A stretch of 64,000 nucleotides of DNA, from assembly GCA_025526935.1 (NCBI GenBank), contig JAHLKD010000027.1:421385-485384 (forward strand). Reading direction: 5' to 3'. Below are positions 5,849-61,859 of this stretch, in pieces. How positions within the stretch are numbered: position 1 is the stretch's first letter; each line of letters starts with the position of its first letter. The notes under the pieces were generated by a model. It had not been told where the DNA came from. It saw only the letters and a list, made by a program, of their open reading frames with translations, and did no database searches. Both the position numbers and the translations under genes were made by a program. Source of the stretch: Cladochytrium replicatum (taxonomy: Eukaryota; Chytridiomycota; Chytridiomycetes; Cladochytriales; Cladochytriaceae).

Positions 5849-8800
5849 TTATGCACCCTGCTCTTTATCCGGCGCCTTTTCGGCCGCCACCTTCCGCCCC
5901 AGCGGACCTTTGTCAGGCCTGAGCAGTTCCACCCACTTCGCATACTCATCCTCCTTCCTAAAGTCAATCAACAACGAGCACCCTTGCTCTCCGACCATAT
6001 CCGCGGTATTGCTCATTTGGTTGCTCGACATGGTCACCGCATTAGGTGTGGACGATAGCATGCTGTTCGCGCCTGCTGAGTTTGTGATCGAGTTCCCGCC
6101 GTTGGCGTTGGGCTGGTAGAGTCCAATCGTGAAGAGCTTCCTACTAGTGTCCGCACGGGTGTAGCCCAGTTTCCAGTATCGAAGGTTAATCACAGTTCCT
6201 GTGTTGAGAGTCGACGAGTTTGCATCGAAAAGGAGAATGAGATGGTCATCGTAGAATACGCCGACTTTGGACTGCCACGCTGCGAGGAGTCCCTTCTTGA
6301 AAAGCACCGAGATCACATTGTTCGTTTTTCCAAAGCCTTTGTTCTGTTATGAAAGTTCAACATCTTCGCGAATATATGCAGCATTTCTTTGTCCTACCAT
6401 TTCGGCCTTCGCTTTCGCGGCTCGGTTACCCATGGTAGTCATACCACCAAAGTTTGTCCTGACCGCCATCCCGATCCCAGTTGAATGCGAATGTGATCCT
6501 GAATCCGAGGTCGAATTCGTTTCCACAGGGTCCCTCCACGCATCGAAAAATAGACGTTTCCCGAACAACATTCCAAAGCCGAATGCGTTGGGATACACCA
6601 ACAGCACCACTTTAAACCAGAACTTGACATTGTAGTCCGCGATGACGGACGCCATGAGAAGTGGCACGAGGACCGCAATCGTGACGACGGCATTATAAAC
6701 CGAGTACCCAATCTGAGTTGTTTCTGAGAAGAGGTCGCGGACGTTCCGGGTCAGGAAGGCAACAGCGGCAGCGATGAGCAGGAGAACGGCATTGAAAGCA
6801 TAGAATAGGCCGAGAATAATGGAGTCAACTTGGGGGCGGTCAGAGGCGCAAACGTAGAACTGGTCGATTGAGTTGGTGATGAAGGCGAGTTGGGGTCGCT
6901 TTGGCGCCGCGGCGGTCCATGCAATCGCGAGAATCTGAAGCAGTGTGCGTTAAACAGTGATCTACTTAAAAATTTGTGCTTCGTGAGCTACCAAGTTCGG
7001 AAGGACGAGTGCACCAACACCAATTAGAAGTTCAGTATTTGGAATGGCCATTTTGACACGAGTCGAGTTGGCAAAGATCCTTCGGAGCAAGAGTGAGGGT
7101 AAGATTTCAGTTCAACTCCAATCTCGTAGAGTGTAATCATAAATACCTGTAGACTCTGTAGTTTTTCACCAAGATGCATCCAACCACAATGCCATAGGAA
7201 CAAGGCACAATAAACGTCTCCACCGCGCACTTCCACTCCGTTGGCTCTCCGATGTCAATCAGTGCCACCAGATCGAGTCCGAGCATACCCGCAAGGATAA
7301 AGTACACAAACACTGGGCTCATCGCCTTCACAACCGGATGCGCACCTTTCACCGCGATGATCACCATGCCTGCCACGATCGCAAGACCAACAAACAACAC
7401 GATTCCAAGTACCGCACCTCCGCTGCCTGATGACCACGGCGTGGTGAAGATAACGCCTGTCGTGGGTGGGACGACTTTGAGGTCGCAGACGGGCCAGACG
7501 ATGTCGCCGAACGGGAAATTGCGGAGATCGGTGGGGCCGGTGACGACTGTCGCAGATACGGATGACGTAGTGCAGTTGACGTAGCGGAAGTCCAAGGCGT
7601 CGGGGGTCATGAGTGTGCCGGTCATGACGAAAGGGAAGGGATACTTTGAGGCGTTTCGGTTGGGAATGACGAGGCGGTTCCCGAAGGGATATTGGCCTGT
7701 CTGAAGGTAGATTGTTTGGAGTGCGATTGGCAGGTAGCCTTGAGCGTACTCTTGTTGGAGGACGGTGTATTGTTGCTGGTGGTTGATCATCGCTATGCGT
7801 GCCGTAAGCAAAAGCTGTTTTGTTAGGAGATGCTTTTAAGTAGGACTCACCTTCAACAACGCACGTTGAGCTGTCAAAAGATCCCATGGCAACGTTGGTA
7901 CCTTGTCCCGTTGGGATACCCAATGACTGGAAGACACCGAGAATCCTGTCAGTAGGTGCGTTAGATACATTGCAAGTGACTTGTTCCACGCAAAGTTCAA
8001 TCATACCAACACGTAGAACCGGACTCTTGAACTATCCACCGTGTCGATTTCGGGAAGAACGAAACAACACTGCTTATCTTCTGTGCTGCAGCGATCGAAT
8101 TACTCGACAAAACTCCGAGGTAGGTTGCATTGACCCCAGTCCCTGACAAAACACCAAGGAATCCTGAACAACGAACGCTTTCTCCTAACGTTGGCGCATC
8201 CGTATCCGTACACAGCGCCTGTGTCGCGAGCGGGTTCTCCTTCAAAAGCTGCTGCGCAAGGTTGGCGCCTGCCACGCCCTCATCGTTTCCAATGAATGCT
8301 AGCATGTCGCTAAAGTTTCCTTGCACATTGGCGAAACCAGAGCCCGAGTTGACTCCCACGATCGGGATCTTTTTGTCCCTTGCAGGGATCAACACGGGGA
8401 CAAACAAAGCTTGTCGTGAAAGCGAGACAATCCAGCCCGCACTTTTGACAGGGTCGTTGTTGTTTGTGACGTTGGCAATGAAGCTCGCTGCGCCGACACC
8501 GTCGGTGACTTCTGTGACCATCTCGATGGTGGACACTCCAGAGTCGACTTCGCCTCTGTAGATACCGGAGCGCCAGTTGGTCCAGAAGCCAGAAGCACGA
8601 CGGGCGTGGGAGGCGACAGTGAAGAAGGCAGATGTGCGGTTGACAGGGAAAGCGCCGTCGGGGAATCCGGCATCGCGGGCGTTGACGTAGGCGTTGAATC
8701 CGGACATGAGGTTTTGGGCTTTCAGTGAGGCGGATTGGTAAACTACCGGCCCTGTCCACAGGTGTGTGTTGTCGACCTTTGTGTAGCGGTATTTGAAACT

Positions 8801-9939
8801 AAAACCATGTTTCTCATCGAGACTCACCTTGATGCTGCCCATTTGGAACAGATGTGACAGCGTCACAGCGAGGTATCCCTGCATGTACTCTTGGTGGTCA
8901 ATGATAGTATGAATGATGTTGGCTCCCATTCCCGCCAGTGCAGTCATGGATGGACCCACGGCGACCACCGGAATAGATTTAGTGCGAAGCAAGTTGTACA
9001 ACTCATCCCCTGCTTGTCCGACAAGAAGAGTGACAAGTTTCTCACTTGGAGCAATGATAGCGTTGACTGTTGTGCCTGAATTCAAGCGTGTTACGAGCGC
9101 TGATTTGGCATCCGTGAGTCGGCTTGGGTCCAAATCGATGAATTCTTCGAGCGTTCCTTGAATCTCATCTGTGCCCGCTCGAGCACCGGCGCAAACGGCA
9201 TCCGTTCCGGCATCAAGACCTTTGGAAGGGTTCACACAGAGAACCAGAGCTCGGGTTGTGATAGCAGACGTGTTCCGTAGTGACCTAGTGTTCAATAGGT
9301 TAGATCATACTGCCATCTTTGGTTTCAATTCAACCAACTGGATCGCCTGATACCCGCTCATGGTATTGTTTGGACCAATGTATGAGAGAAGCCGTCTCCC
9401 CATTGACACGACTTGATCTTCGCCGCTAATTACGCTGACGACGCTGATGTTGGGGAAACTGTTGAGCGCTAGCTGGAATGCCGAGTTTGACGGGGTCCCC
9501 TTGATGGGGATATTGCTGATGATTGAGCCATGGTACCCTTCATTGATCAGTCCAAGGAAAACATTGCTCAGTCCATCCGGTTGGTTTGATCTCTACATAG
9601 CCGCATGAGCGTGATCGTTGCTTTCAATTGTTTCTTTATACATACATCAAAGCTGTCGAGTGAGACCCCAGCGTCCGCCGCAGCACGTTTTGCGCCAGCA
9701 GAAAACGCAAGCATCTCGCCGTTACCAAAGGTGTACTGTGTACTCAGGATGATCCGCACGTTTTGACGGTTGAAGCAGGGGCAGTTGAGGTTCTTTCGGA
9801 GAGGATCATCTTGTGCGACTATAGTTGAGCTGTTGCTCGAAGTGGATGAAGTTGGCTGCGCTTGGACCAGATGAATCCATTGAGCTACCAAAGAGATCCC
9901 AAACAACGCCGAGAATGTTTTCAGCTTGAAACCGATCAT
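5849..9939 (-). CDS. Class C (GABA-B-like) GPCR with two tandem PBP ectodomains and a PH-like tail
   Basis: Predicted plasma-membrane receptor of 1230 residues from eight exons (9646-9939, 9354-9592, 8066-9284, 7851-8025, 7147-7792, 6992-7079, 6398-6934, 5849-6343). A signal peptide (ATG 9939, cleavage near VQAQP) is followed by two consecutive type-1 periplasmic-binding-protein domains, roughly residues 50-350 and 360-780. They share landmarks: YIGPNNTMSG versus FIGNDEGVAG, and EYMQGYLAVTL versus EYAQGYLPIAL. Seven membrane segments follow, with TM1 at VLGIVLFVGLAIVAGMVII and a 7TM_3-like NVRDLFSETTQIGYSVY. The C-terminal ~160 residues run from VLFKKGLLAAWQSK to DEYAKWVELLRP, the pattern of a PH domain with its closing Trp helix. 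The ligand is unknown. The seven-helix class is firm and the PH call is tentative. Confidence 0.88.
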
Positions 9940-45758: not shown

Positions 45759-48700
45759 ATGAAGGTATATAGCAAACCCTCTCAATACCCATCAAACTTG
45801 CATTGCTCAACCATTGCCGTTCTAGTTCGGAAAATACATCCAGACCCAGCAGGCAGAGTGGGCCGGCACTCACTACCTCAACTACAAAGCCCTCAAGAAA
45901 ATAATCACGGTCGCAGTCTCCACCTGGGACTCCGCCGACCATGCAAACCGCCGACCCGGAGAGTCCTTGGCCTTCTCGACAGTTGCGGCGCCGGATCTGC
46001 CGGACGGCGAGCCGATCTTGATTGCAGTCACGGCGGAGGGAAGGAGAGATCGGAGGGGTGCGGATAGCGGGAGTGGGAGGGAGAACCCCGAGTTTGTGGC
46101 ACACAAGACGGAGTTCTTCTTTAGGCTGGATCGGGAGGTTGAGAAGGTATGCATAGAGAAAAATTTGGCGGAGAGTGGGACCCCATGAATGATGTAGCTG
46201 GGGATAAGGGGAGAAAACCTAGGTGGGGCTGGTATTGAGAAGAAGATAATTATGAGTGGAAAAGTTGGTTGGAAAGGTTACTTGCACATGCAATTTGGTT
46301 GTAAGCTGAAGAGGGGGGAAATGGTTGCCAGATAGCGATACTCGCAGAGTTCATCGGAATGCTCACATTCTCTGCTTCAGGTGAATGCGTTCTATCTGCA
46401 AAAGGAGAATGAGTTCAAGGTGCGACTACGATCTTTGATTGACAAGAAGCGGGTATTATTATCACGACCATCTTGGAATAAGCATGCGTCAGCGCACTCG
46501 TTACGTGAAGGATTCTTGCAGTTCCAACAGGATCTTGCAAAGCTTCAGGTGGGACCAACGATCGAAACTTGAATACAACGCATTTATTCTCGTCGATAGA
46601 AATTCGTCGAAGTGAACGGGACAGGATTCCGAAAGATTCTGAAAAAGTGGGACAAAAGATCAAAGTCGACTACGAAAGACATGTACCTATCGCGGCAGGT
46701 TGAGATCCAGCCATGTTTCAACAAGGAGGTTCTCGCAGAGTTGAACGACGTCAGCAGCACGCACATCGCAGAGCTGGATGCCGTAATAAACACATTAGAG
46801 CCAGAATCGGCTTCTGCTACCGCACCAGCACCCGCATTTGTCAGTGGGTTGGCTGGTGAGCGATATCTCGATGACGTGGAGACCGAGCTTGTACAACTTT
46901 ACTTGAACAACGAGATTGCCGCGGCTGCGGAACTGCTCGAGCGACGCAAGAGCTCAACAGTCGAAGGAACCACAAATCTCTTTGCTGAAGACAAGGAGAT
47001 CCTGTCGCGGGTGTTTCTACGTGTGATTCCCGATGGCGAGATCGATGCGCTCCAGGCACTAATCGCAACAGGCGAAGTCGATCCCAACTACGCCGACGAT
47101 GTGAGCGACCGCACTTCGCTGCACGAAGCCGCGGCTCACGGCCGATTCGATGCGCTCACCCTTTGCGTCACCAACAACGGAAAATTCGAAGCTGTGGACG
47201 TATACGGACGAAAACCTCTCCACTACGCCGCAATGTACGGCGCGCATGGATGCGCGACTTATCTGGTCTCGCTCGGTTCGGATCTCAATGCCGTCGACCA
47301 CGACGGTTCCACACCACTCGTGTACTCCATCATCAACGGCCACGCCGCATGTGCGGAGACGTTCCTCGCGAGCGGCGCACGCGTCGAGCCTGACTCCGCG
47401 ACATCACTGATCCCTATCTCGCTCGCATGCCAGTACGGCCACCGTGACATCGCGACCATGCTCCTTTCCCGTCGCGCGACGCTCCTCCCGAACGCGGAGG
47501 GGTTGTTCCCTCTGCACCTAGCTGCGAGGGAAGGGCACCACGAGGTCGTGAAGCTGTTGATCGAGAACGGCGCGGATGTGAACAGGGAGGACGTGATCAA
47601 TGGGTGGACTGCGCTGTTTTTCGCGGCTAGTGAGGGGTACGTTAAGGTAGTGAAGGCGTTGGTGGCTGCTGGAGCGAGGTACGACCGACCGGATGAGAAT
47701 GGGTGGGTGCCGAGGACGTATGCGTTGCATCAGGGGCATGTGGACGTTGCGAATTTGCTTGGGGAGGACGAGGACGTGGAGATGGAAGAGGAGGGCGCAG
47801 TTTCGATCACGGTTGCTGGTGTGCCGGTTCCGATCGAGACGGAGGTTGAACCGGTCGAGGAAGGGAGGAGGAGTGGGAATGTAAAGCCGATGGCTCCGAG
47901 TGCATTGTTTGTCGCCGGATCGGGTAACAAGCATCAACATGGGTCATTTCCATCAGATCTGGATTTAGATTCGATTCCATCGCTTTCGCTGCCACCTCCG
48001 ATCATTCCTTTCCGAATCTAGTGAGTAGATTGAAGATGACGCAAAACTATGGAGGTGCTGATCGTGGATTACTTTTCCCTAGTGGTCATAACTACCTCGA
48101 ACACAAATGCTATCTCCAGATCACACTGACTCACCTTGCCGCACCAACAGCCACCACGTCTGCACCAACACCAGGATTGCCAATCCACCTCTTCAACTCC
48201 CGCCAACTCTCCTCTCTAAAGCTGGTCATCAGCAGCCGCCCAGAGATCAACGTCCCCTACTCTGTCATCTTGCCACCAAAGTACGATCTGGAAACCTACA
48301 CCTTCCTGGTGGACGAGCAAGATCTCATCGGTATCTTGAAGCCTCCCTCGCCATCTCGGACCACACCGCGCGGATCGAACGCCAAGAAGACAACCACAGA
48401 CGGACAACAGTTCTCGCTCCAGTTTGAGATCTATCCAACCTTCGGGACGCGACCGATCGCACGGACATCGGTGCTCGCATCCCAGTTGCTTGCGATCGCA
48501 GGCTCGAACGTCACCGGCGCAGTCGAAATGACGCCCTGTATCCAACCGCTGTACGACTCGCACGTGCGCGTTGTAGGCGAGATGGTGTTTGGCTTCAGCA
48601 TCGTCAAGCCGTTCGTGCACCGCGGGCTGAAGATCGGCGGTTCTGTCGAGACGTACTGGAAGACCACCAAGGTCGTCAACGCCAGCACTGCACCGCCTTC

Positions 48701-50005
48701 GAACTCTGCGGGACTGCTGAGTTCAGCGCTGGGGACATCGGGTGTCTTTGGGACGCCGTACGAGTCCGGCGGGCCGACACAGCAGCGGGTTACGGCCGTG
48801 CAGTCGTTCATTACGGCGTCGTCGCTGGCGGAGGAGTATATACAGCTTGTGGTGCAGGTGACGAAAGACGGTGTGCCGGTTGTGTATCCGCACTGGTTCT
48901 TGCCGGTGCCTGGGATCAAAGACGGGGACTCGATGGCTGTGGACGGGGAAGAATCGGTGGATGTGGAGGGCAAAAATGTGTATGGGATCCGGATCGGTGT
49001 TTCAGGGGTAACGTTTGAGCAAGGGAAAAGGATAACTGAGGCGAGTGGGTACGCGACGCGGTTGGTGGGCGAGAGAAGTGGGGAGGGAGAGACGGGAGGG
49101 AAGTATGCTGCCGGCGGGAACGCGAGACAGGGAGGTACGGGGATGTTGGCGCTGCTTGGAGGAAGCTCTAGCACGCGCTCGGCGGGGGCAGCGGGTGTTG
49201 GACGAAGTCAAGAGTGGGCTAAGATCGTGGGAGGGGCTTTTGTCTCACTTGAGGAAGTGCTTCAGGTAGGCAACGATGGGAATAATGCTGTCGCTGCTCT
49301 AACGCCAGTTGTGTTTCAGGAGCTGCCCATGTCTGTCGGTGTAAGTATAGAACTCAAGTATCCGACCCAAGCCGAACGATCGCACTTCGATCTCGTGTCG
49401 CTCCCAGACATTAACACTTTTGTGGATGCGGTGCTTAGGGTCGTGTATGACCGTAGCGAGATGCAGGCACAACAGCCGTCGCCGGGGCAACCCGGCGGGC
49501 CACATGGCGAGCGTACACAGCGAAGTATCATTTTCAGCTCGTTCAACCCCGGCGTTTGCACGGCGATCAACTGGAAACAACCCAACTATGGAGTGTTCTT
49601 TGGAAGCCGGTGTGGATACGCGGCGGTGTCTGGCGGATCAACGATGGTGTCGCCACGACGGAGAAGAAAGCAGCAGAATGGGGAGGGAGCGGAGAAGGTT
49701 GAAACGGATCGAAGATGTTTAAGTATCAAAGAAGCGGTAAGGTTTGCAAGGAGCAGTAATTTGCTCGGTGTGGTCTGTGACGCCCGGCCTTTGGTGAGTA
49801 TCCTGACAATGGGAATCAATTATGATTAATGTGAAATTCATAGATCCAAGTACCGATGCTTATCAATACCATCAAGGAGAGCGGATTAATACTTGCAACA
49901 TTCGGGGAGGCAAATACGAAACGAGCAAATGTGGATGTGCAGGAGCGGGCTGGAGTTGATGCGATCATATCGGATGGGGTTTTTAGGTACAATACGACGA
50001 GCTGA
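45759..50005 (+). CDS. SPX-ankyrin-degenerate GDPD protein (Pho81/NUC-2-like)
   Basis: Phosphate-sensing regulator of 1262 residues in six exons (45759-45764, 45826-46146, 46381-46548, 46600-48020, 48083-49793, 49844-50005). The first exon is just ATGAAG. The SPX domain starts MKFGKYIQTQQAEWAGTHYLNYKALKKII and ends NGTGFRKILKKWDKRSKS; its Lys cluster binds inositol pyrophosphate in the family. About six ankyrin repeats follow (DRTSLHEAAAHGRFD, GRKPLHYAAMYGAHG, GLFPLHLAAREGHHEVV, GWTALFFAASEGYVKVV). Then come IYGHNYLEHKCYLQI and a GDPD-like tail. Its metal and catalytic residues are mostly lost: FVHRGLKIGG, IQLVVQV where EFDVQ is expected, VVYPHW where VYHD is expected. This fits Pho81-type CDK inhibitors rather than active Gde1. 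Confidence 0.85.
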
Positions 50006-50740: not shown

Positions 50741-51950
50741 CTCTATTGGCTCACCTCAAGCGCAATGTCATTCGAGGATTGAAGTGTCTATACTCCAATC
50801 ACTGCAAACCTTCCCAGTACCAAGAGAATGCTTGGAATTTGATTTGGAGAGTTAGATGGATCACCCTGTTAAGCATAAGGGAAGGGGAAGAATTGCTGCC
50901 ACTTTTCAAATGACCTTGCAATGACCAATTTCACGACTTCGAATTTGCAGTTCCACCTCGGCTTGTTGAAGTTGATATCCCTACCTCAGGAGAGGCATGT
51001 GTGGTAATCATGATGGTTCATTGCCCCCACATTAATGATGACGACACGTAGTTGACCGCCCCAGCTCACAATAAGACGCTGACTTCAACTCTTCTCCTTC
51101 CATTATTACAGTTAGAGGACTATATGGACCCAGTTGCTCAGGGCCAATATCACCAAGAGACAGTCCAATTGATGTGAACTGTGTTGGATTATGAACTTGT
51201 TGGGACTCTATTCAGAAAAGTGACCACCTCTTTCATGTCTATCCTGCAGGATAGTTGCTTTGGCAACCTCAGTTGGTACAAATAGCTTCCAATCTCTAGC
51301 ATTATGATAGAGAATATTATCTACAAATTCCCAAGAGGCGGCAAAGACTCGCTCTTGCTCACTGCCCTGCTTCAAATCTTATTGTTTTCTTCTGTAATCA
51401 CTAGATAATGCTGCGCTGGTTCATAATGAGTTTTTGCAGTTCATTCTGTGACACTTCTATCAAACTATGGGGTCCTACAGGTCCCACACGGTCATACTAG
51501 TCTGATAAATTTCCCACTTGGAGTTTTGAAGGCAATGCAGCATCCAACTAGATTACAGCAATGGGAACATCCATTGCATATAAAGCAGAACGTGTTATAG
51601 ACCAAGAGTCCACAGTACGAGAGGCAACTGTGACAAAGCATCTGGAACAACATGCAGGTAGCCTAGCCTATGCACAATTACAGCGCAATCTGCGGATTCC
51701 ATAAACTTCAAAACACATTTGTGCATATTTTCTGTTGGACCTTGGTAATTCTTCAACCACGGCAAAGCTTCATGATCTACAACAATTGACAAAGGGAGAT
51801 CCCCATACAGGAAGCTGGCTCTTTCAGCACTTTCCAGTCCTGTAATTAATCCCCAAACTTCAAGCTCCGTAGCCCACAGCTTCATCTCTGTTGGACCACA
51901 GGCCTTGCTGTAAAAAGCTATTGGTTTTGTTGTCATGTGTTGTGTACTTC
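50741..51950 (-). pseudogene. Ty3/gypsy retrotransposon relic (RNase H and integrase)
   Basis: Reading the minus strand, 51595-51936 encodes an RNase H fragment: KPIAFYSKACGPTEMKLWATELEVWGLI, SIVVDHEALPWLKNYQG and HRLGYLHVVPDALSQLP, typical of Ty3/gypsy pol. Downstream, about 51360-51200, the integrase zinc-finger region is readable (LYHNARDWKLFVP then ATILQDRHERGGHFS). Stops and frame changes follow, with no intact core. The left limit is a guess. It is abutted at 52030 by the hAT-type element. Confidence 0.75.
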
Positions 51951-52029
51951 ACACCTCTCCATGAACTTCTTCATGTTGCGGTCCTTCTCTCTCACCCTCA
52001 GGCATTGATGTGCATCAGATTATCAGGAA

Positions 52030-52200
52030 TAAGGTTCGGCGGGTCCGGGTCGGGTCCGGGTTTCAGTGGCGACCCGCACCAAACCCTTTGGGTCGGGTCG
52101 TGTTTGTCTGGGGACCCGCCGGGTCACTGACGGGTACAAAGGGAATACCCGGACCCGAAGTGGTTGAAACCCGTACCCGACCCTGACCCGCCGGGTTTTT
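52030..52200 (+). repeat. Left inverted end, ACCCG-rich
   Basis: Starts taaggttcggcgggtccggg and continues with many gggtc / gaccc words in both senses until cccgccgggttt near 52197. It is inversely related to 58195-58368. Confidence 0.8.
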
Positions 52201-52329
52201 GCTGCCCAGGAGAGGATTGATTGAATTTTGAGTTAGACCACGGATATTTACATGAACACTTTGTGTCTGTGTGGACAGTGTGTATTTTAGAAACACTATC
52301 GTAAAAAGAAACAAAACTCCACTGAGCAA

Positions 52330-54012
52330 TCACAAGTTGATAGGTGGAACAGCCCAAATCAGCTTCTGTATCTGGTTCATATCGTCAGAGTCCCATCCAC
52401 CACTGGTTACGTCCTTCGCCAACCCAGTCCTGATGAACCGATCAATGTCGTCATTTGAAAGCATGAAATCCTTGGCTAAACCTGTCTTCCAAGGTTTCCA
52501 ATCCACCTCAGGGAGCGTTATGGACGAAAGATGCCCGATGTATGCCGTCCAGAACCTTAGCCACTCAGAAGGATATGCATCCACTAATGCCCTGAACATG
52601 CGATAGATAGTGGCAGACGTACTTAGCGAATTATTGTGCCGTATCCAGTTTCCGAGCAAAATGTGCACCCTAAGAAGAGTAAGGCTGCTCCGAGAACTGC
52701 TACTTGAAGTTGATATTCGGCTTGAGCGGTCGTCTGATTCAACAAATATGGGCCGTAAAAACTCATTTCGGGAGAGGACTTCGTAGTTTACATTGACGTA
52801 CTTGATTGATGGTGGAAGAGACGGCAATTTAAGGTCATAAATAACCTCATTGATCTTATGCATCTGGAAGCAGATACCCTGGATGACCTCTTTCACCAAA
52901 AGGATAGCCGTACGACGATGCTGCTGCAGGCTAAGCAATGCAAGGGAACTCGTTGGAGAACTGGTTCGATGTACCTTCGGAATTCTACCAATCCCCTTGA
53001 TAGCCGACGATATGCTTTTTAGGCCGCCTGTTGATGTTGGCGCCGCAGGTGCTGCAGCTTCTGAATGACCAGCCTGTCGTTTCAGAGCAGCAAGCTCTCC
53101 CTCCAGGGCGGTCACACGTGATTTCCATTGTGAAATCTCCTGGGAAGTTGCCTGCTTCTCCCTTTCCATTGCAGCGGTGATCTCCCTGAATCTTGCTAGC
53201 TCTTCGTGCTCGCCGTGCTGAATCAATGCACCCGCCCTGCCCAATTCATCAATGAGAGCCTTCTCTCGCACTTCTGCTGCGATGCGGGTCCTTCTCTCGT
53301 TCATTGCAGTCTCTTCAAGATCTTTTGTCATGTTCAACAGTCGTTCTGACTGTTTGAGGACCTGTTTTGTCCTTTCACGGTCCTCATCTGCTCGTTTGAT
53401 GGTCGCTTGGAACTCGTCAACCTTTGCAGTGACGGGCATTCCTCTGTAAATGCCGTACTTGTGTCCCTGCCGCCTGTAAAAGTCCAGAAATGTTGTTTCC
53501 TTCTGAAAGGAAGAGCTTTTCAAGCACTCCATACGATAGGTGTTTGCTGCTGTTATGAACTCCGTTCGTCCACTGCATTCATCGTGAATTTCGTTCAGGG
53601 CTTGACGAACTAGCTTGCTGTCAGAGTTAAGTCGGTCGATCAACCCTTGAAGGACAAATCTTGGGCCGCATTCATCACGATTTGTTTGACAGTTGCTGAT
53701 GAAGTCCTCCGAGTCGTAGCTGTGGCCGCTCGCTTTGAATTTTCGATACCAAAGTCGTATGTCTGAAGCAGGACAGAGTCCGTCGATGAGCAAATAGTCA
53801 GCATCCCCTTTAGTACCACGTCGCGCCGGTTTCTTTGAAGGAGCTGTCGATTTGACATCTGTCGATTTGACATCAAGGCCAACTTCTGCTTCTTCCACTT
53901 CAGAACCCGATGCCAGAGATGTTTCAGGTGCAGTCACAGGTTCTGCACTTGATTCTCTTTCAGATGATGGTCTGGATTGTTTTAACGCTCGCTTCTTTGT
54001 AGTTCGAGGCAT
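52330..54012 (-). CDS. Transposon-borne 560-aa coiled-coil protein, unknown function
   Basis: Single open frame from the ATG at 54012 to the stop at 52330; no family recognised. Residues 1-75 are charged and disordered, including a small internal duplication (DVKSTDVKST). Residues ~80-200 form a compact region with LCPASDIRLWYRKFKASG and FLDFYRRQGHKYGIYRGMPV. Residues ~205-315 are a long coiled coil (KRADEDRERTKQVLKQSERL, REITAAMEREKQATSQEISQ). The C-terminal ~220 residues are hydrophobic/aromatic (LLVKEVIQGICFQMHKINEV, LRVHILLGNWIRHN, YPSEWLRFWTAYIGHL). It runs on the same strand as the transposase, separated only by repeat array 1, and lies inside the ACCCG ends. It may be a DNA-binding partner or regulator of transposition, or a captured host gene. 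Confidence 0.75.
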   Translation of the reverse strand: MPRTTKKRALKQSRPSSERESSAEPVTAPETSLASGSEVEEAEVGLDVKSTDVKSTAPSKKPARRGTKGDADYLLIDGLCPASDIRLWYRKFKASGHSYDSEDFISNCQTNRDECGPRFVLQGLIDRLNSDSKLVRQALNEIHDECSGRTEFITAANTYRMECLKSSSFQKETTFLDFYRRQGHKYGIYRGMPVTAKVDEFQATIKRADEDRERTKQVLKQSERLLNMTKDLEETAMNERRTRIAAEVREKALIDELGRAGALIQHGEHEELARFREITAAMEREKQATSQEISQWKSRVTALEGELAALKRQAGHSEAAAPAAPTSTGGLKSISSAIKGIGRIPKVHRTSSPTSSLALLSLQQHRRTAILLVKEVIQGICFQMHKINEVIYDLKLPSLPPSIKYVNVNYEVLSRNEFLRPIFVESDDRSSRISTSSSSSRSSLTLLRVHILLGNWIRHNNSLSTSATIYRMFRALVDAYPSEWLRFWTAYIGHLSSITLPEVDWKPWKTGLAKDFMLSNDDIDRFIRTGLAKDVTSGGWDSDDMNQIQKLIWAVPPINL

Positions 54013-54177
54013 GGTGTTTGTACTCTTTGTCGCGGGAAGATACTGGCCCGGTGTTCTTAGCCGGAATGTTACAGGAATGTATGCTATAATACTTCCCTGA
54101 CACTATAGTTTTCTACCCGATCTGAAAATAATAATAAGCTAGGGAAGAAACTGGCTAGTAACATTGATAGAGAGGAT

Positions 54178-54880
54178 TCTGTCCGGGTGGACAGAATCTT
54201 ATTGCTAGTAAAATTGATAGAGAGGTTAGCTGTACTTGATAGAGATCACTGAAGTACCGTCAATGAGTTGAGAAAGTGTCCGGGTGGACAGAAGTCTTAT
54301 TGCTAGTAACATTAATAGAGAGGTTAGCTGTACCTGATAGAAATTACTGAAGTACCGTCAATGAGTTGAGAAAGTGTCCGGGGGGACAGAATCCTATTCT
54401 ACCCAGACAGACACAGTGACACTCAGTCTCCCAGATTTCTGTCCACCCGGACACTTTCTCAACTCATTGACGGTACTTCAGTAATCTCTATCAGGTACAG
54501 CTAACCTCTCTACAAATACTACTAGCAATAGGATTCTGTCCACCCGGACACTTTCTCAACTCATTGACGGTACTTCAGTGATCTCTACCCAATACAACTA
54601 ACCTCTCTATCAATGTTACTAGCAATAGGATTCTGTCCACCCGGACACTTTCTCAACTCATTGACGGTACTTCAGTGATCTCTATCAAGTACAGCTAACC
54701 TCTCTAATAATGTTACTAGCAATAAGATTCTGTCCACCCGGACACTTTCTCAACTCATTGACGGTACTTCACTGATACTTCACTGATCTCGATCAAGTAC
54801 AACCAACCTCTCTACAAATACTACTTGTAATAGGATTCTGTCCAGGCAGTCGCTTTCTCAACTCCTGGACGGTACTTCAA
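54178..54880. repeat. Array 1 of ~97-bp palindrome-bearing repeats, head-to-head
   Basis: Units contain the palindrome tgtccgggtggaca followed by a block reading attgctagtaacattgatag and ending gagttgagaaag. Three units read forward (palindromes near 54181, 54278, 54376). After a spacer at about 54390-54435 five units read in reverse (near 54441, 54539, 54635, 54732, 54840). Spacing is 96-98 bp, with the last at 108. The two senses face each other and could form a long hairpin. Confidence 0.92.
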
Positions 54881-54910
54881 CAGATGAACAGTCTAAACAA
54901 CAATTTATAT

Positions 54911-57346
54911 TTAAAAGAGTGGGTTATCATCAGTTGCTTCCAACTCTAATACCACATCAAAATCCTCGCCAAAATTATGCACCTTTACAAAATCCTCACT
55001 AACATCACTTTTTGAATCTAGGGAATCATTTTTGAACGGTTCTTCAGCACTCAATTGATGCAACCAGTCATGACGGCACATCAACGCATTTATTGTTCTT
55101 GGAGCAAGGCGGTTGCGAGTTGCAGGTACCAAATCAACCCCGGCTGAAAACTTTCGTTCGACTGGAGCGCTTGTTGCTGGTATTCCTAAATAGTCCATTG
55201 CCATCTGGCTTAGGGCTGGAAAGTTCACACTTCCAACGGTCTTCCACCAGTCCATAATATTGATTGGCTTCCCATCAGAATCAATACCGCGGAGTACCTG
55301 ATCGCCAAGATAGCGATCCAGCTCATCTTTTTCCTCAGGAATCTCTTCTTGCCAGATGAAAACGGATCTAATGGCTCTCAAGCGTTCAGCGTCCGTTTTT
55401 TTCTGTCTATCACCGGAAGCTCCGCTCGAATCGTGTCGACGTTCTGGCGTGTTTCCAAAAACATCGGCACCACTGTTCTTGATTTTCCGTGACTTATACG
55501 ATTCCTCCCAGACTTTCCGCACTAGGGTGACCTGATCCCTTCCTACATCTTTCTCCCAAGCCTTTGAAATTCGATAATATTGATCCTTAAAACGAGGATC
55601 GAGTACCGTAGCAACTGCTAAACACGGGCTCTTAGCGATTGAGTAATATATTCTCAGCTTCTCTAGTGCATTTCGAAATGCTTTGGTGAAAGTTTCATCT
55701 AATTCTGCATCCTCTAGGTCCTCCAGTTGATCGATAAGATCGTTGTAAAATGGAATAACAAGCGGAAGTGTTGGATATCTAGACCCCTCGATTGCCTTTG
55801 ATATAACCTCGAAAACACTCAAACCATCCCGGATCTTCTGTAGGACCTCCCATTGCTTTGGATTTATTGACCAATCTTTCAAAGAATCTTCAATCCAGCA
55901 TATTTTGTCCATTGCCTCTCGTAGCTGTAAGGCTCGTTTGACCATATAGAACGTGCTATTCCAGCGAGTTGTCACATCGATAATTGGTAATAGAGGAACC
56001 AGTTTCACTAATCGGCACGAATCAATAAATGAGCTTCGTCGTTTTGGGGAAGACCGGATTCCTCTGACTAGCCGTCGAAGAAGGTTTATGACATTAACGC
56101 CGGAGTTATCGTCATTTGCGACTGTGTCCCCTGCGGGCGCGAATGTATCGATAAAATCCTTTGCTGCCAGATTGATAATCTGTGCCATACACCGTATGTG
56201 TTGAGTTTCTGCAGACCATGCAATATCCCTATCTTCCAAGAGCGTCTCCAGCTTAGCACTCATGGTAAAGTTGTTTGAACCGTTGTCAGTTGTAATGCAC
56301 AATAAGCGTTCACCCGATAGCATGCCAAATTCATCCAGACACTTGACAAGCTGACTAGCCATGGCGACGCCTTCATGCTTTCCAACCATCGGAATCATCT
56401 GCAGCAGCAAGTCCTGCGGCTCCCATTCTTTCGTGATGAAGTGGGCAGTAATTCCAAGAAAAGAAATCTGGTTCTTCGATGTCCAACAGTCAGCTGTTAT
56501 TGATACTTTTGAAGGCGAACCAACAATCAGACCTTTAATGAGCTCCTTCTGCCTATCGTAAAGATCCATCTCCTTTTGCTTCACTGCTTTTGCCGTCTTT
56601 GGTGTATAGTTTGGCTGAAAAGTCTTCAGCATGCTGACAAAGAACTCGTTCTCCACAACAGTAAAAGCCTGATTGTCTGCAGCAATCCAGTCCAAAATCG
56701 ACCGCCACGCTACGTCTGGATTGAACACAAAGTTTTGCTCCTTCTCCTGCGAGCCGAAATTCAATGTCTGTTGTCCCTTGGGGACGATGTCCAACAGTCC
56801 AAGCGACCTGGCAATACTTCCATGGTGGTTTTTCAGATGCCGGAGGAAGTTTTTTGTTGATCCCGTCTTATCGACCTTCTGGCTCCACTTGCATTTCGCA
56901 ACCAAACATGTTCTCAGACCATTATCAACCTTATAGTAATCCTTCGCTATGCCGCCTCGACTACCTCTACAGTCCGACATGCTATCAACATCTGCGTCTG
57001 ATGAAAGCATTGATGGTTGAACTGATCCAGCTGCAGGCTCCTGTCGCACTGAAGAGTCAGCAAAACTAACGTCGGCAGGAAGCTCTGGTGCATGCTGAGA
57101 AGCCGGGCCAAACTCGCTGGAGTCATTGGAAGAAGATGTGGAGCTCGGCTCTCGAGCGCTGTTGTTGCCACTGTGTCCTGATACACGTCTGCGTTTGTCC
57201 TGCATGATGTTCCCCTCGCTGGACGCCTCTGAAATTTGGGGGGCTGGCAGACTTTGCTTCCGTGTGTCAAGCGGATGACTGTCCACCAGTCTTTGGCTTG
57301 TGTCGGACGCTGCCTTACGCTTTGGTTTAACAAAGGCGGCGTCCAT
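54911..57346 (-). CDS. hAT superfamily transposase
   Basis: Uninterrupted 811-residue frame from the ATG at 57346. Residues ~1-130 are Ser-rich. A BED-type zinc finger follows with CLVAKCKWS and FLRHLKNHH as ligands. The RNase H-like core has TADCWTSKNQISFLGITAHF (first Asp) and LLCITTDNGSNNF (second Asp). VTTRWNSTFYMV and the following helices continue the core. The C-terminal dimerisation region reads MDYLGIPATSAPVERKFSAG and TRNRLAPRTINALMCRHDWL, the hATC signature. Length and motifs are those of an autonomous element, with no stop or frameshift, so it may still be active or be recently inserted. Flanked on both sides by ~97-bp arrays. Confidence 0.93.
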   Translation of the reverse strand: MDAAFVKPKRKAASDTSQRLVDSHPLDTRKQSLPAPQISEASSEGNIMQDKRRRVSGHSGNNSAREPSSTSSSNDSSEFGPASQHAPELPADVSFADSSVRQEPAAGSVQPSMLSSDADVDSMSDCRGSRGGIAKDYYKVDNGLRTCLVAKCKWSQKVDKTGSTKNFLRHLKNHHGSIARSLGLLDIVPKGQQTLNFGSQEKEQNFVFNPDVAWRSILDWIAADNQAFTVVENEFFVSMLKTFQPNYTPKTAKAVKQKEMDLYDRQKELIKGLIVGSPSKVSITADCWTSKNQISFLGITAHFITKEWEPQDLLLQMIPMVGKHEGVAMASQLVKCLDEFGMLSGERLLCITTDNGSNNFTMSAKLETLLEDRDIAWSAETQHIRCMAQIINLAAKDFIDTFAPAGDTVANDDNSGVNVINLLRRLVRGIRSSPKRRSSFIDSCRLVKLVPLLPIIDVTTRWNSTFYMVKRALQLREAMDKICWIEDSLKDWSINPKQWEVLQKIRDGLSVFEVISKAIEGSRYPTLPLVIPFYNDLIDQLEDLEDAELDETFTKAFRNALEKLRIYYSIAKSPCLAVATVLDPRFKDQYYRISKAWEKDVGRDQVTLVRKVWEESYKSRKIKNSGADVFGNTPERRHDSSGASGDRQKKTDAERLRAIRSVFIWQEEIPEEKDELDRYLGDQVLRGIDSDGKPINIMDWWKTVGSVNFPALSQMAMDYLGIPATSAPVERKFSAGVDLVPATRNRLAPRTINALMCRHDWLHQLSAEEPFKNDSLDSKSDVSEDFVKVHNFGEDFDVVLELEATDDNPLF

Positions 57347-57470
57347 TTTTGCTGTGGTGTGGCTGGAACGTTACCGACTCTAATGTCCAGGTGCACAGAA
57401 AGCACAGCTCTCGAGGTCTGTTGTGGTAGAAATTGTTTGTTACAGAACTTCCGTTGTGACTTCTTGGAAA

Positions 57471-58160
57471 GTGTCCGGGTGGACAGAATCGTATTGCTAG
57501 TAACATTGATAGAGGTTAGTTGTACTGGGTAGAGATAACTGGAGTACGTCAATGAGTTGAGAAAGTGTCCGGGTGGACAGAATCGTATTGCTAGTAACAT
57601 TGATAGAGAGGTTAGCTGTATTGGGTAGAGATAACTGAAGTACGTCAATGAGTTGAGAAAGTGTCCGGGTGGACAGAATCCTATTGCTAGTAACATTGAT
57701 AGAGAGGTTAGTTGTATTGGGTAGAGATCACTGAAGTACCGTCAATGAGTTGAGAAAGTGTCCGGGGGGACAGAATCTTATTGCTAGTAACATTGATAGA
57801 GAGGTTAGCTGTACTTGATAGAGATCACTGAAGTACCGTCAATGAGTTGAGAAAGTGTCCGGGTGGACAGAATTTTATTGCTCGTAACATTGATAGAGAT
57901 GTTAGTTGTACTTGATAGAGATCACTCAAGTACCGTCAATGAGCTAAGAAAGTGTCCGGGTGGACAGAATCTTATTGCTAGTAACATTGATAGAGATGTT
58001 AGTTGTATTGGGTAGAGATAACTGAAGTACGTCAATGAGTTGAGAAAGTGTCCAGGTGGACAGAAAATGCATGCCTCGATGTCTGTTGTGATGCAAAATT
58101 GTTTGATACATACAAAACTTATATTGCGTCTTCTTGGAAAGTGTCCGCGCGGACAGAAAG
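57471..58160 (+). repeat. Array 2 of ~97-bp palindrome-bearing repeats
   Basis: Eight forward units with palindromes near 57473, 57567, 57663, 57760, 57857, 57954, 58050 and 58143; spacing 93-97 bp. The outermost units are preceded by a shared acttcttggaaa / gtcttcttggaaa and by similar ~70-bp leaders (57398-57470 and 58063-58140), a higher-order duplication. Orientation is opposite to the units just left of the transposase. Confidence 0.92.
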
Positions 58161-58194
58161 AACAATAGCTTCGTTTTAGATTCTCTATCACATC

Positions 58195-58368
58195 AGGTTT
58201 TACTCGGGTCTGACTTTTGACCCGAGAAGGGTTTTCCTACTGGACCCGATACCCGACCCGGATCCGACCCGAAAATTTTCCATGAAAACCCGGCAGTCGG
58301 GTCGGGTACATTTAGTCAATGGACCCGGACCCGACCCGAAAGACACTAAAACCCGCCGATCCTTACAA
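58195..58368 (-). repeat. Right inverted end, ACCCG-rich
   Basis: From about 58200 the sequence carries gacccg/acccga words, and it ends acccgccgatcctta, the inverse of the left end with one change (GATCC for GAACC). This marks the right border of the hAT-type element. Confidence 0.8.
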
Positions 58369-58434: not shown

Positions 58435-59058
58435 GTGGGTTTGCTTGATACAGGCGCAACTGTTTGGATGACACCTAATCGTCACGCCTTTAGTTCGCTG
58501 ACGTATACGAATGACGAGGACGTGGTGGGACTAGCGGATAGTCATACAATTCCAGTTTGTGGTTTTGGAGATGTATCTGTAGTTTTACCCAATGGGCGAA
58601 TTAAGATAATACACAACGCACTTTATGTTCCTGATCTCGAAGACACACTTGCATCGGTGTGTAGTATCATTGGAGACTCTGGGGACATTGTGAGTTTCAC
58701 CAAAGACAAGGTTATCCTCACGCATGGTGATACAGATGAACACGTTATTATTGGGCGACGGGAAAGAGATTTATACTATCTCTATGCTGATGTTAGTACC
58801 ATCGGAACTCACCAACTGCAGCATGTGATTGCTCAACGAGCTAAAGCATTAGCAGTATCCACAGAAGATCTCGATCAGTCGATGGACTTTACGTCCGGTG
58901 TACGATCTTCTCACGCGATGGGTCTCGATGTAATGTCAGACAACAGCATTCGTCAAACGAACGATGATGAATGTCAACGAGCTGTTGAACAAAGCTGTGG
59001 TCTGGATCCTCAGGTTGTGTGTGTTGCTAATTCACGGGTTAATGTTTCTAAGAGATGA
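58435..59058 (+). pseudogene. copia protease region
   Basis: Pol fragment with the aspartic-protease motif LLDTGATVWMTPNRHAF, then VCGFGDVSVVLPNGRIKIIHNALYVPDLEDTLASV and RRERDLYYLYADV, typical of copia PR just before integrase. The frame is open from AKDHVG upstream of the first in-frame ATG. It ends at a TGA at 59056 in sequence that no longer resembles pol. Confidence 0.85.
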
Positions 59059-59510
59059 ATAAAGAAGATTGCGAGTCACAAGTACTAGCGCAAGAGAATG
59101 CTCCTTGTGTGTATCGCCACAGGCTCCTTAAATAAGTGTACTGTCGTTTTGGCTTTTCCTTCCGGAAGATCTGGATCGAAGCAATAAGGTTTGACTCTTC
59201 TTCTCACAGGCGTAGCAAAGCATAATCATGCTAAGCTGTGCGTGAGATCTAGCTCTCCTCAACAGGATTGTTCTCACACATGATTCCCACGAACGCGTTA
59301 ATCATATGTAAACCTTTGCTGTGATCTGATCCGGGCTTCACTTCTACAAGTGGATGATAGAAAAGTAATGACAGTTTACTATACCTATGGCCGCAATAAA
59401 TATAACCCATGAAGAAATACCCGGAGGTATCCAAACTCGTAATAGATCATCATCTATATGCTTTAGTTCAATAGTTAGAAATGTTGCTCAGTGAAGAGTG
59501 ACATTTCTGT
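59059..59510 (+). repeat. LTR-like noncoding block inside copia pol
   Basis: About 450 bp separate protease from integrase, where copia pol should be continuous. The block shares short words, in the same order, with the LTR at 61842-62522: cgccacaggctc followed by actgtcgttt-ggctttt, and later caatagttagaaatg. A diverged solo LTR of a related element is the simplest reading; the limits are uncertain. Confidence 0.5.
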
Positions 59511-60784
59511 ATATCGGGCGTTTGTGTTTTTGTACTATCAATGACTGGATTGGCCAAGTCCATCAATCGAAATACTTAACACGAGCATCTCAAGATACAG
59601 TTGGAGTGAGCACCAACTTATCGCCAGTGACAGTACACGAACTTGCAAAGTTACACCAGCAGTTTGGTCACATCCACTTACGGACGATCTTTCGAACGGC
59701 AGAGAAGCTCAACATCAAAATGCCCAAGGTTGAACCGGATGCATTCAATCTTGTCAACAAATCAATTATGCAGAATTGTTTGGTCTGTAGTCGCACGAAG
59801 CTGAAGCAGAAGCCGATTTATTCTACAATAAGTCGAGCTCCGAGGAAACTTTTCCGTCTGTTTTCCGATGTCGTACGTTTAATCTACGACGGACAGAAGA
59901 GATATTGGCAGATCATTGTCGACGAACAACCTCGTTTCATCACAATCTACTTCCTGAATCGAAAGAGTGATGCGGTGGATAGTATGATTCGACATATCGC
60001 TGATGTGGAAAATCGCAATCACCCACTACACGTTGCTGAACTACATTCCGATTCAGGAGAATTGATTACGAAACGGTTGATCCAATGGTGCAATACCAAG
60101 ATTCCTCGCATCCACGTCCACCCAGCTCCTCCGTCAGTAAAGGAACTCGATGGTCTATCAGAGCGGAATATACAATCGATCAAGTATATGTCGGACGCGA
60201 TGCTGCTACAAGCTGGACTACCACGAACACTTCAATTCATGCAACTCTCCATCCTATACGCTGCGGTCGTCAAGAACGCTACTTTCCATTCAGCTGTGAA
60301 TGCGATTCCGTACTGTGCTTACCTTGACAAGCGGATAGATTTGGCAACTATCCACGCCTTTGGAACACTTGTTAGTTTGTGGATCTCACACGAACAAAGG
60401 TTGGCGCGCAGAATCCGAGACAAGTCTGAACTAGGTCTGTTTCTCGGATACAAGGGTGAAGACCTGAAGATCGTCATAGCACTCAATTTTCGGACAAACA
60501 CAATAGGCGAATACTTCCATGTTACGTTCCACGAGGGAGTTTTTGTTGGTTATAATCCTACCCGACAGTTACTCGACGATCTTACGGTACAATATCCACT
60601 GAAGGCCGGGACATATTTCGATGTTGATCAAATACCAACCGGGGATCAGGGGGTGCAAGAGACGACTGTTGAGTTTGTCTCAGACAATTTCCCGATTTCT
60701 ACCGTTGCAGACGAAGAAATCGATGAGGATATGAACGACGACCCCATATATTACCGCTTAGAAGAAGCTGGTGACAGTTGTTGA
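59498..60784 (+). pseudogene. copia integrase region
   Basis: Integrase with zinc-binding HQQFGHIH and CLVCSRTK, then the core: FSDVVRLIYDG (Asp 1), ELHSDSGELITKRL (Asp 2), ELDGLSERNIQSIKYMSDAML (Glu). It continues FGTLVSLWISHEQR and LFLGYKGEDLK, then an acidic linker. The first visible residues of pol are near 59560 (HQSKYLTRASQDTVGV). The frame ends at a TGA at 60782 just before RT takes over in another frame. Confidence 0.88.
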
Positions 60785-61859
60785 ACATTTACATGGACTA
60801 GACGTTGATGACCCAGACGATGCTGATTACGATCCAAATGCTGATTTATCGACTCCACAATCCATTACTGAAGAATCTCCGAATTTGTCTTCCGTATCTC
60901 CTGTAGAGGAATATGATGCACAACTCGAAAGTGATCTTCAATTCATTGGAGAAGATGTCGACGAAGCGTATGCAGCAAGAAAACGAAAACGTCAAGCAAG
61001 TGCAAATTTGTCGAACGCCAAAAGGAAACAAAATTCCTTGTTTACCCAATCCGTTCGTAATATCGATTGGACCCTGAAGGCCGATTCCTCATATCCAACA
61101 CAACCAATTGCGAATGGAAATATACGGACTGCACCAAAGACTCTTCGTGAGGCTTTATCACGATCCGATGAGGCTCCATTCTGGTTAGCGGCGATGAAGG
61201 AGGAAGTCACACAACTAGTTGGCAACAATACTTGGGCCGAAACGTTTTTACCTGATGGACGGAATTTATTATCGGGCAAATGGGTTTTCACATATAAGCT
61301 TGACAAACATGGCAATATTACTCGATTCAAAGCACGTTGGGTCGTACGAGGATTTTCACAGATTGAAGGATTGGATTTCGATGAAACCTATTCTCCAGTT
61401 ACGAAAACGTCCACGATCCGTTTTCTGATTGCATTAGCAGCATTAGTCGGCATGATAATATTCCAGTTTGATATCAAGGGTGCATATCTCAATGCGATAC
61501 TGGAAGAAGAGAACTATGTCGAACTCCCTCATGGTTTCGGACGAGTAGATTTCCGGAATCGACCCATCGTCTGCAGACTTATCAAAAGTCTGTACGGTCT
61601 ACACCAGGCAGCTCGAGAATGGTACAAAACTCTTTGGAAACAATATCTCAGTGTTGGTTTTGTGAGGAATATTGCAGACATCTGTCATTTCTGGCGATAC
61701 AATCCAACAAATAATACCCGCGAACACACTACCGTTCATGTCGATGATATACTACATTTTTCCACAGATCCAAACGCATATCATCGGTTTCAGACCGATT
61801 TGGAAACTTCGTTCACAGTAGGCAGTACTTCAAAGGCGAAATGTCGAAGTTTGGTTTGA
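60771..61859 (+). pseudogene. copia reverse transcriptase, truncated
   Basis: Begins in the acidic linker (one frameshift from the integrase frame at about 60775), then EAPFWLAAMKEEVTQLVGNNTW, GKWVFTYKLDKHGNITRFKARWV, FDETYSPVTKTSTIRFL, FQFDIKGAYLNA (catalytic Asp), CRLIKSLYGLHQAAREWYK and the VHVDDIL box. Homology stops after STSKAK at about 61841, where the LTR of another element begins. RNase H is absent. Confidence 0.9.

Follow-up and report, generated by a model that had tools for sequence, protein, structure and literature searches.

The stretch of Cladochytrium replicatum DNA examined here (hereafter the window; 64,000 nucleotides, G000:C27:421385-485384) carries, at window positions 52030-58365, a transposon of the hAT superfamily with two open frames on the minus strand, one for a transposase of 811 amino acids and one, termed ORF2, for a protein of 560 amino acids. 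Both frames are intact and both lie inside inverted ends of the form TAAGG...TCGGCGGGT, as a preliminary description of this DNA had reported, although the right boundary that it gave, 58368, lay three bases too far and is corrected here to 58365. The terminal inverted repeats are identical at 14 of 15 bases, reading TAAGGTTCGGCGGGT at the left end (52030-52044, plus strand) and TAAGGATCGGCGGGT when the right end is reverse-complemented (58351-58365, minus strand). Subterminal motifs, recognized by their sequence and positions, belong to the GGGTCGGGTC type at the left (52036-52200) and to the GACCCGACCC type at the right (58205-58350). ORF2 (52330-54012) is located 3′ of the transposase gene (54911-57346), and arrays of a 97-bp repeat are found between the two.

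The element is a hAT transposon by domain, by ends, and by the target duplications described below. Specifically, the transposase contains the Dimer_Tnp_hAT domain (PF05699; E = 2.2e-20 and 72.7 bits in Pfam, where the cut-off is 21.4), and its nearest solved structure is that of Hermes (E = 2e-12). The protein carries the sequences TADCW, TTDN, and PVERKFS, which are candidates for holding the acidic catalytic residues of the RNase-H-like core; the Hermes alignment covers TADCW and the VERKFS region, with two of three aligned stretches being weak. An N-terminal BED-type zinc finger is common in hAT transposases, and the present protein contains CLVAKC and HLKNHH, with no Pfam BED match at E values up to 1. 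Among 23 genomic copies with at least 96% identity and more than 90% coverage, the transposase is intact in 13. A PF05699 profile search of the genome (50.5 Mb in 198 contigs) gave 150 scored matches from 297 candidates, three of which (on C19, C103, and C32) were picked for looking different, and all three proved to be of the same family, with ORF2 sequence downstream. Only these three of the 150 were read singly, and a further hAT family may exist in this genome.

The ORF2 protein belongs to no known family; it is basic, with a pI of 9.05 (9.6 for residues 1-66 alone), and has a coiled coil at about residues 195-315 that is the only confident part of an AlphaFold2 model (the model lacks the first codon, such that its numbering is one below that of the protein). 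Searches of Pfam and of PDB sequences returned only weak, coiled-coil-type, or chance matches; the four Pfam matches, with E values of 0.019 to 0.79, are all under the cut-off. One scan each of a viral and a prokaryotic contig collection, where a eukaryotic relative would hardly occur, gave no relatives outside the family. By the same identity and coverage thresholds as for the transposase, 21 of 28 copies retain an intact ORF2. In a protein-level search of the genome, 78 matches were scored of 1098 candidates, a sample biased to good copies, and 55 of them are free of stop codons. These 78 are 95-100% alike and none stands out as a host gene, although diverged homologues could escape such a search. 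Antisense to ORF2 there is one open frame of 111 amino acids, and no other of at least 100 amino acids is listed.

The 97-bp repeat unit has a palindromic core, TGTCC-N4-GGACA. Using an 18-base motif in which at most three substitutions were allowed, we counted cores in 12 elements, namely the window copy and 11 others with perfect target duplications. The array upstream of ORF2 (54179-54398, plus strand) has three cores in the window copy and three in every one of the 12 elements. Upstream of the transposase gene, a second array (57383-58158, plus strand) shares this orientation and holds nine cores; the full-length elements, ten in all, carry 7-10 here, and the two deletion derivatives carry 3 and 0. 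A third array, oppositely oriented and just 3′ of the transposase gene (54437-54879, minus strand), has four cores in the window copy and varies from 2 to 17 among the 12 elements. No core is present elsewhere in the window. One further copy (L034, C19:483500-489700) contains a much longer array between its transposase gene and ORF2, with about 2 kb of repeats.

Ends and open frames recur in the genome far above chance. With up to two mismatches, a 28-base pattern starting at the left terminus is found at 282 sites and a 26-base pattern ending at the right terminus at 238, whereas an ORF2 motif occurs at 306 sites and a transposase core motif at 254; the reversed control of each pattern gave none. 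When the left 2 kb of the element serves as the query, 38 of 40 scored full-length matches start no more than about ten bases from the left end, and the remaining two, the window itself and a copy on C138, extend into the flank. The right end and the transposase, used as queries, recur likewise. Linkage between these landmarks was assessed from the sites listed for contigs C1-C36 (the right end was allowed one mismatch, the other three patterns none), and the resulting figures are lower bounds that include truncated copies. Starting from the 62 left ends, ORF2 sits at its expected distance in 45 cases and the transposase does so in 30, and 18 show the complete set of four landmarks in the right order; ORF2 is likewise in place at 44 of 76 transposase cores. 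Two loci (L014, C13:411549-421979; L016, C31:11280-19821) have a head-to-head arrangement in which two outward-facing left ends enclose one transposase, perhaps as a result of aberrant transposition or recombination.

Insertion sites were inspected in 25 copy regions that were picked for holding the ORF2 half. Both ends are present in the same orientation, 1-9.5 kb apart, in 20 of these regions, and 11 of the 20 paired-end copies have perfect 8-bp target duplications. Nine of the 11 are elements of 6.3-7.6 kb, and two are deletion derivatives of 3.2 and 3.6 kb. When the two flanks are joined, the product has a match elsewhere in the fetched sequence that spans the junction for six of them (L009, L015, L020, L031, L032, and L033), as expected of an unfilled site; for L032 and L033 the matching stretch ends some 30-40 bases beyond the junction on one side. 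No such match is present in the fetched sequence for the other five. The clearest case is L020, in which a young element has inserted into ORF2 of an older copy and is flanked on each side by TTGGCGCC, and the joined flanks align to the element without a break (609 columns, 90.8% identity). Thus, perfect duplications and unfilled sites, together with shared ends, indicate that ORF2 moves with the element.

Older, decayed copies of the family also contain ORF2, and they permit the history of this gene to be followed. Old fragments were chosen from the fetched sequence by an identity below 97.3% and are about 82-94% identical to the young copies. After related loci on C32 and C110 had been merged, nine old groups resulted. 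Two of them are the halves of a single old copy (L020) and hence not independent, and another two share a locus (L018), with no more than 8 bases of overlap per pair. The C32 and C110 sequences form an old subfamily (98% alike over 450 bases) in which the end of ORF2 is broken in both copies, so that it does not testify to a working ORF2.

Changes common to at least two old groups were taken as having arisen on the replicating lineage. There are 52 such changes in ORF2 (26 silent, 25 replacing, and one stop), and silent changes are in excess of the expected fraction of 0.289 (p = 0.001, omega about 0.41). Private changes, by contrast, look neutral, with 60 of 208 being silent (omega 0.91), and the two silent fractions differ (Fisher p = 0.0036). 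The excess is seen again in a stricter set in which all groups present, at least three, agree (15 of 25 silent, omega 0.26), and when C>T and G>A changes are left out (18 of 34, p = 0.0012). Leaving the related loci unmerged yields the same result in weaker form (27 of 58, p = 0.0026; Fisher p = 0.011). Two other sense frames used as controls lack a silent excess, whereas one antisense frame has it (27 of 52), which is explained by the third positions that it shares with ORF2. This combination of a silent excess in shared changes with neutral private changes suggests that ORF2 was probably under purifying selection and was not a dead passenger.

The preliminary description had placed ORF2 within the transposon, and the results bear this out. 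In this genome the two frames are paired in copies bounded by the same ends, ORF2 lies inside perfect 8-bp duplications with unfilled sites for six of 11 copies, and its sequence has the silent excess just described; the ends recur, and ORF2 is not confined to places outside them. We therefore regard it as very probable that ORF2 is a genuine selected component of the element. As to what the protein does, the same description had offered target choice, DNA binding, or regulation; its placement of ORF2 within a two-component mobile unit holds, whereas for those roles no domain or usable fold was found.

The copy in the window is not a clean insertion. It lacks a target duplication, with ATCAGGAA at its left side and CAATAAAC at its right. 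Its left flank is identical over 730 of 730 bases to that of the C138 copy (L009), a deletion derivative of 3.57 kb that has ATCAGGAA at either side, and the left 3.47 kb of the two elements are 99.86% alike. A left end preceded by CAATAAAC, which would be the partner of the right half, was not found with up to one mismatch. The window copy is probably a rearranged chimera that arose through recombination, aberrant transposition, or misassembly. Its transposase frame is open, yet at codon 389 it has a private change of histidine to glutamine (H389Q) in the sequence that reads RCMAHIINL in other copies. Motifs of the RCMAH type are conserved among hAT transposases, and so the window copy may be inactive although its frame is open.

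Several observations touch the surroundings of this copy. The 730-bp left flank (window 51300-52029) that is repeated on C138 next to the deletion derivative could reflect a segmental duplication, a second haplotype, or an assembly effect. The left flank of the hAT copy also holds an unrelated minus-strand open frame that reads like a Ty3-type RNase H. Beyond the right end, Ty1/copia-like pieces (58435-61859, plus strand) adjoin the element, with matches to Pol_BBD (6e-16) and RVT_2 (1e-40) and an SH3-like match just under the cut-off.

Taken as a whole, the data are compatible with a recently amplified two-gene hAT family in which ORF2 is a selected accessory protein that binds the array cores, a reading to which we assign a probability of roughly one half. 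The transposase would act by ordinary hAT cut-and-paste, yielding 8-bp target duplications, while ORF2, as a coiled-coil dimer or oligomer, would bind the TGTCC-N4-GGACA cores of the arrays upstream of both genes. Bound ORF2 might then increase the element's expression or protect it from silencing, in the way of VANC, or alternatively might help to bring the ends and the transposase together in the manner of TnpA. The nuclear location, oligomerization, DNA binding, and regulatory effect of ORF2 that this model invokes are each inferred.

A number of observations weigh against this reading. The transposase itself could be the protein that binds the arrays, and the structure prediction for ORF2, made from a single sequence, is poor (pLDDT 45.8, and 37.1 for the C-terminal part). 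Of the sites listed for C1-C36, 32 of the 76 transposase cores are without an ORF2 motif in place, and 26 of the 97 ORF2 sites stand without any of the other three landmarks nearby. A target duplication is missing at the window copy and at nine of the 20 paired-end copies, the nine matching at one to four of eight bases. The old-copy test rests on few fragments, its p-values assume independent sites, and it covers ORF2 alone in that old transposase fragments hardly overlap; one of the shared changes is a stop, R127* (C>T, in two of two copies), perhaps through parallel decay. Within the young burst, changes look neutral in both genes, as expected for copies that are unselected after insertion.

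Other explanations share parts of this evidence. ORF2 could be an element protein that acts away from the arrays, as a copy-number repressor, as a partner of the transposase through protein contact, or as a factor countering another host defense, with the arrays serving only as transposase sites or promoters. Selection on ORF2 tells nothing of mechanism, and hAT transposases bind subterminal repeats themselves, both of which suit this explanation. We nevertheless consider it rather unlikely; nothing speaks against it directly, but the constant three cores before ORF2 and the orientation shared by the arrays before both genes fit gene control. Less probable again is that ORF2 is a captured host gene, a passenger of no use to the element and comparable to histone H3 in hATs of Pseudocercospora fijiensis. 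Gene capture by fungal hATs is documented (PMC6710886, in the part consulted), the neutral look of changes inside the burst agrees with a passenger, and the genome searches scored best candidates only, such that a diverged host homologue could be missed. Neutral decay after capture, however, would not give the silent excess on the replicating lineage, nor do the presence of ORF2 in older copies and a 560-codon frame that is open in most near-identical copies and most scored matches favor it.

We give little credence to the idea that ORF2 is cargo that benefits the host. Selection on the gene could in principle work through the host, but hundreds of near-identical copies and a neutral burst fit a selfish element better. 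It is at least as improbable that a one-gene hAT and an unrelated adjacent ORF2 unit have been read together as a composite, or that an assembly artefact has joined them. The inverted 97-bp arrays flank the transposase gene as if it had formerly been a separate unit, and the window copy lacks a target duplication; set against this, numerous independent copies have the two genes within a single pair of ends and are flanked by perfect 8-bp duplications, with unfilled sites for six of them. The composite is thus largely refuted for the present-day element, and may instead describe its origin.

Elements of the hAT superfamily are usually seen as one-gene transposons, VANDAL elements are of the Mutator type, and ORF1 of PIF/Harbinger elements carries a Myb-like DNA-binding domain. 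The present element resembles hATs such as Hermes in its C-terminal dimerization domain, short inverted ends, and 8-bp target duplications, but differs by having a second, selected open frame and, upstream of each gene, a long array of palindromic 97-bp repeats. The closest precedent within the superfamily is the capture of histone H3 by hATs of P. fijiensis and Pyrenophora tritici-repentis, the P. fijiensis copies being reported as inactivated (PMC6710886). As far as that excerpt goes, these too are fungal hATs with a second coding sequence between the ends and many copies, whereas ORF2 is mostly open in young copies, bears a sign of purifying selection, and has no host homologue that was seen. 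Second coding sequences within hATs are thus already known, and what appears to be new, and unusual for a hAT, is a second gene that selection has probably kept. In the open-access literature searched on hAT second genes and on hATs in chytrids, we found no hAT with a selected second open frame, and the portions consulted of PMC6431247 and PMC10512250 contain nothing on such a gene.

Pairs of element proteins are found in other superfamilies. In En/Spm (CACTA), TNPA recognizes subterminal repeats and acts beside the transposase TNPD (PMC2613891, abridged), an arrangement of two proteins and repeat arrays that is similar in logic, although TNPA belongs with another transposase superfamily, has no sequence relation to ORF2 that Pfam detects, and binds its element's repeats where ORF2 would be predicted to do so. 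According to the sections consulted of two reports (PMC5735166, PMC10398659), VANC removes DNA methylation and binds a short motif multiplied in fast-changing, non-coding tandem repeats, which are located upstream of VANA and inside introns. VANC is likewise a second element-encoded protein, and by analogy only, the present cores also reside in arrays that vary between copies (2-17 and 7-10, with three before ORF2); binding and effect are demonstrated for VANC and conjectural for ORF2, and Pfam reveals no sequence relation. PIF/Harbinger elements similarly encode two proteins, ORF1 and TPase (PMC2836001, in part), but are of a different superfamily, and ORF2 has no Myb-like domain in Pfam at E values up to 1.

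A more specific form of the model, that this hAT lineage has its own sequence-specific anti-silencing or targeting protein which reads self-made palindromic arrays before both genes, draws on the VANC analogy and is speculative, and on balance we doubt it. If true, it would constitute a hAT parallel to VANC of VANDAL elements and could help to explain the recent burst to more than 200 copies. More generally, if selection does maintain a second gene, one could test whether hATs evolve partners of their own for regulation, anti-silencing, or synapsis, and whether bursts are driven by a partner of this kind; the present burst supplies many near-identical copies with differing array lengths.

Two other features of the window are separate from the transposon. 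At 46612-49829 (plus strand), two adjoining frames with a weak SPX match, ankyrin repeats, a GDE1-like C2 domain, and a partial GDPD domain are probably one gene split by an intron or a frameshift. At 7997-9295 (minus strand), a frame of 432 amino acids resembles a periplasmic binding protein domain at a sub-threshold score (E = 1.7e-6 and 28.2 bits, the cut-off being 35.1), which is odd in a eukaryote.

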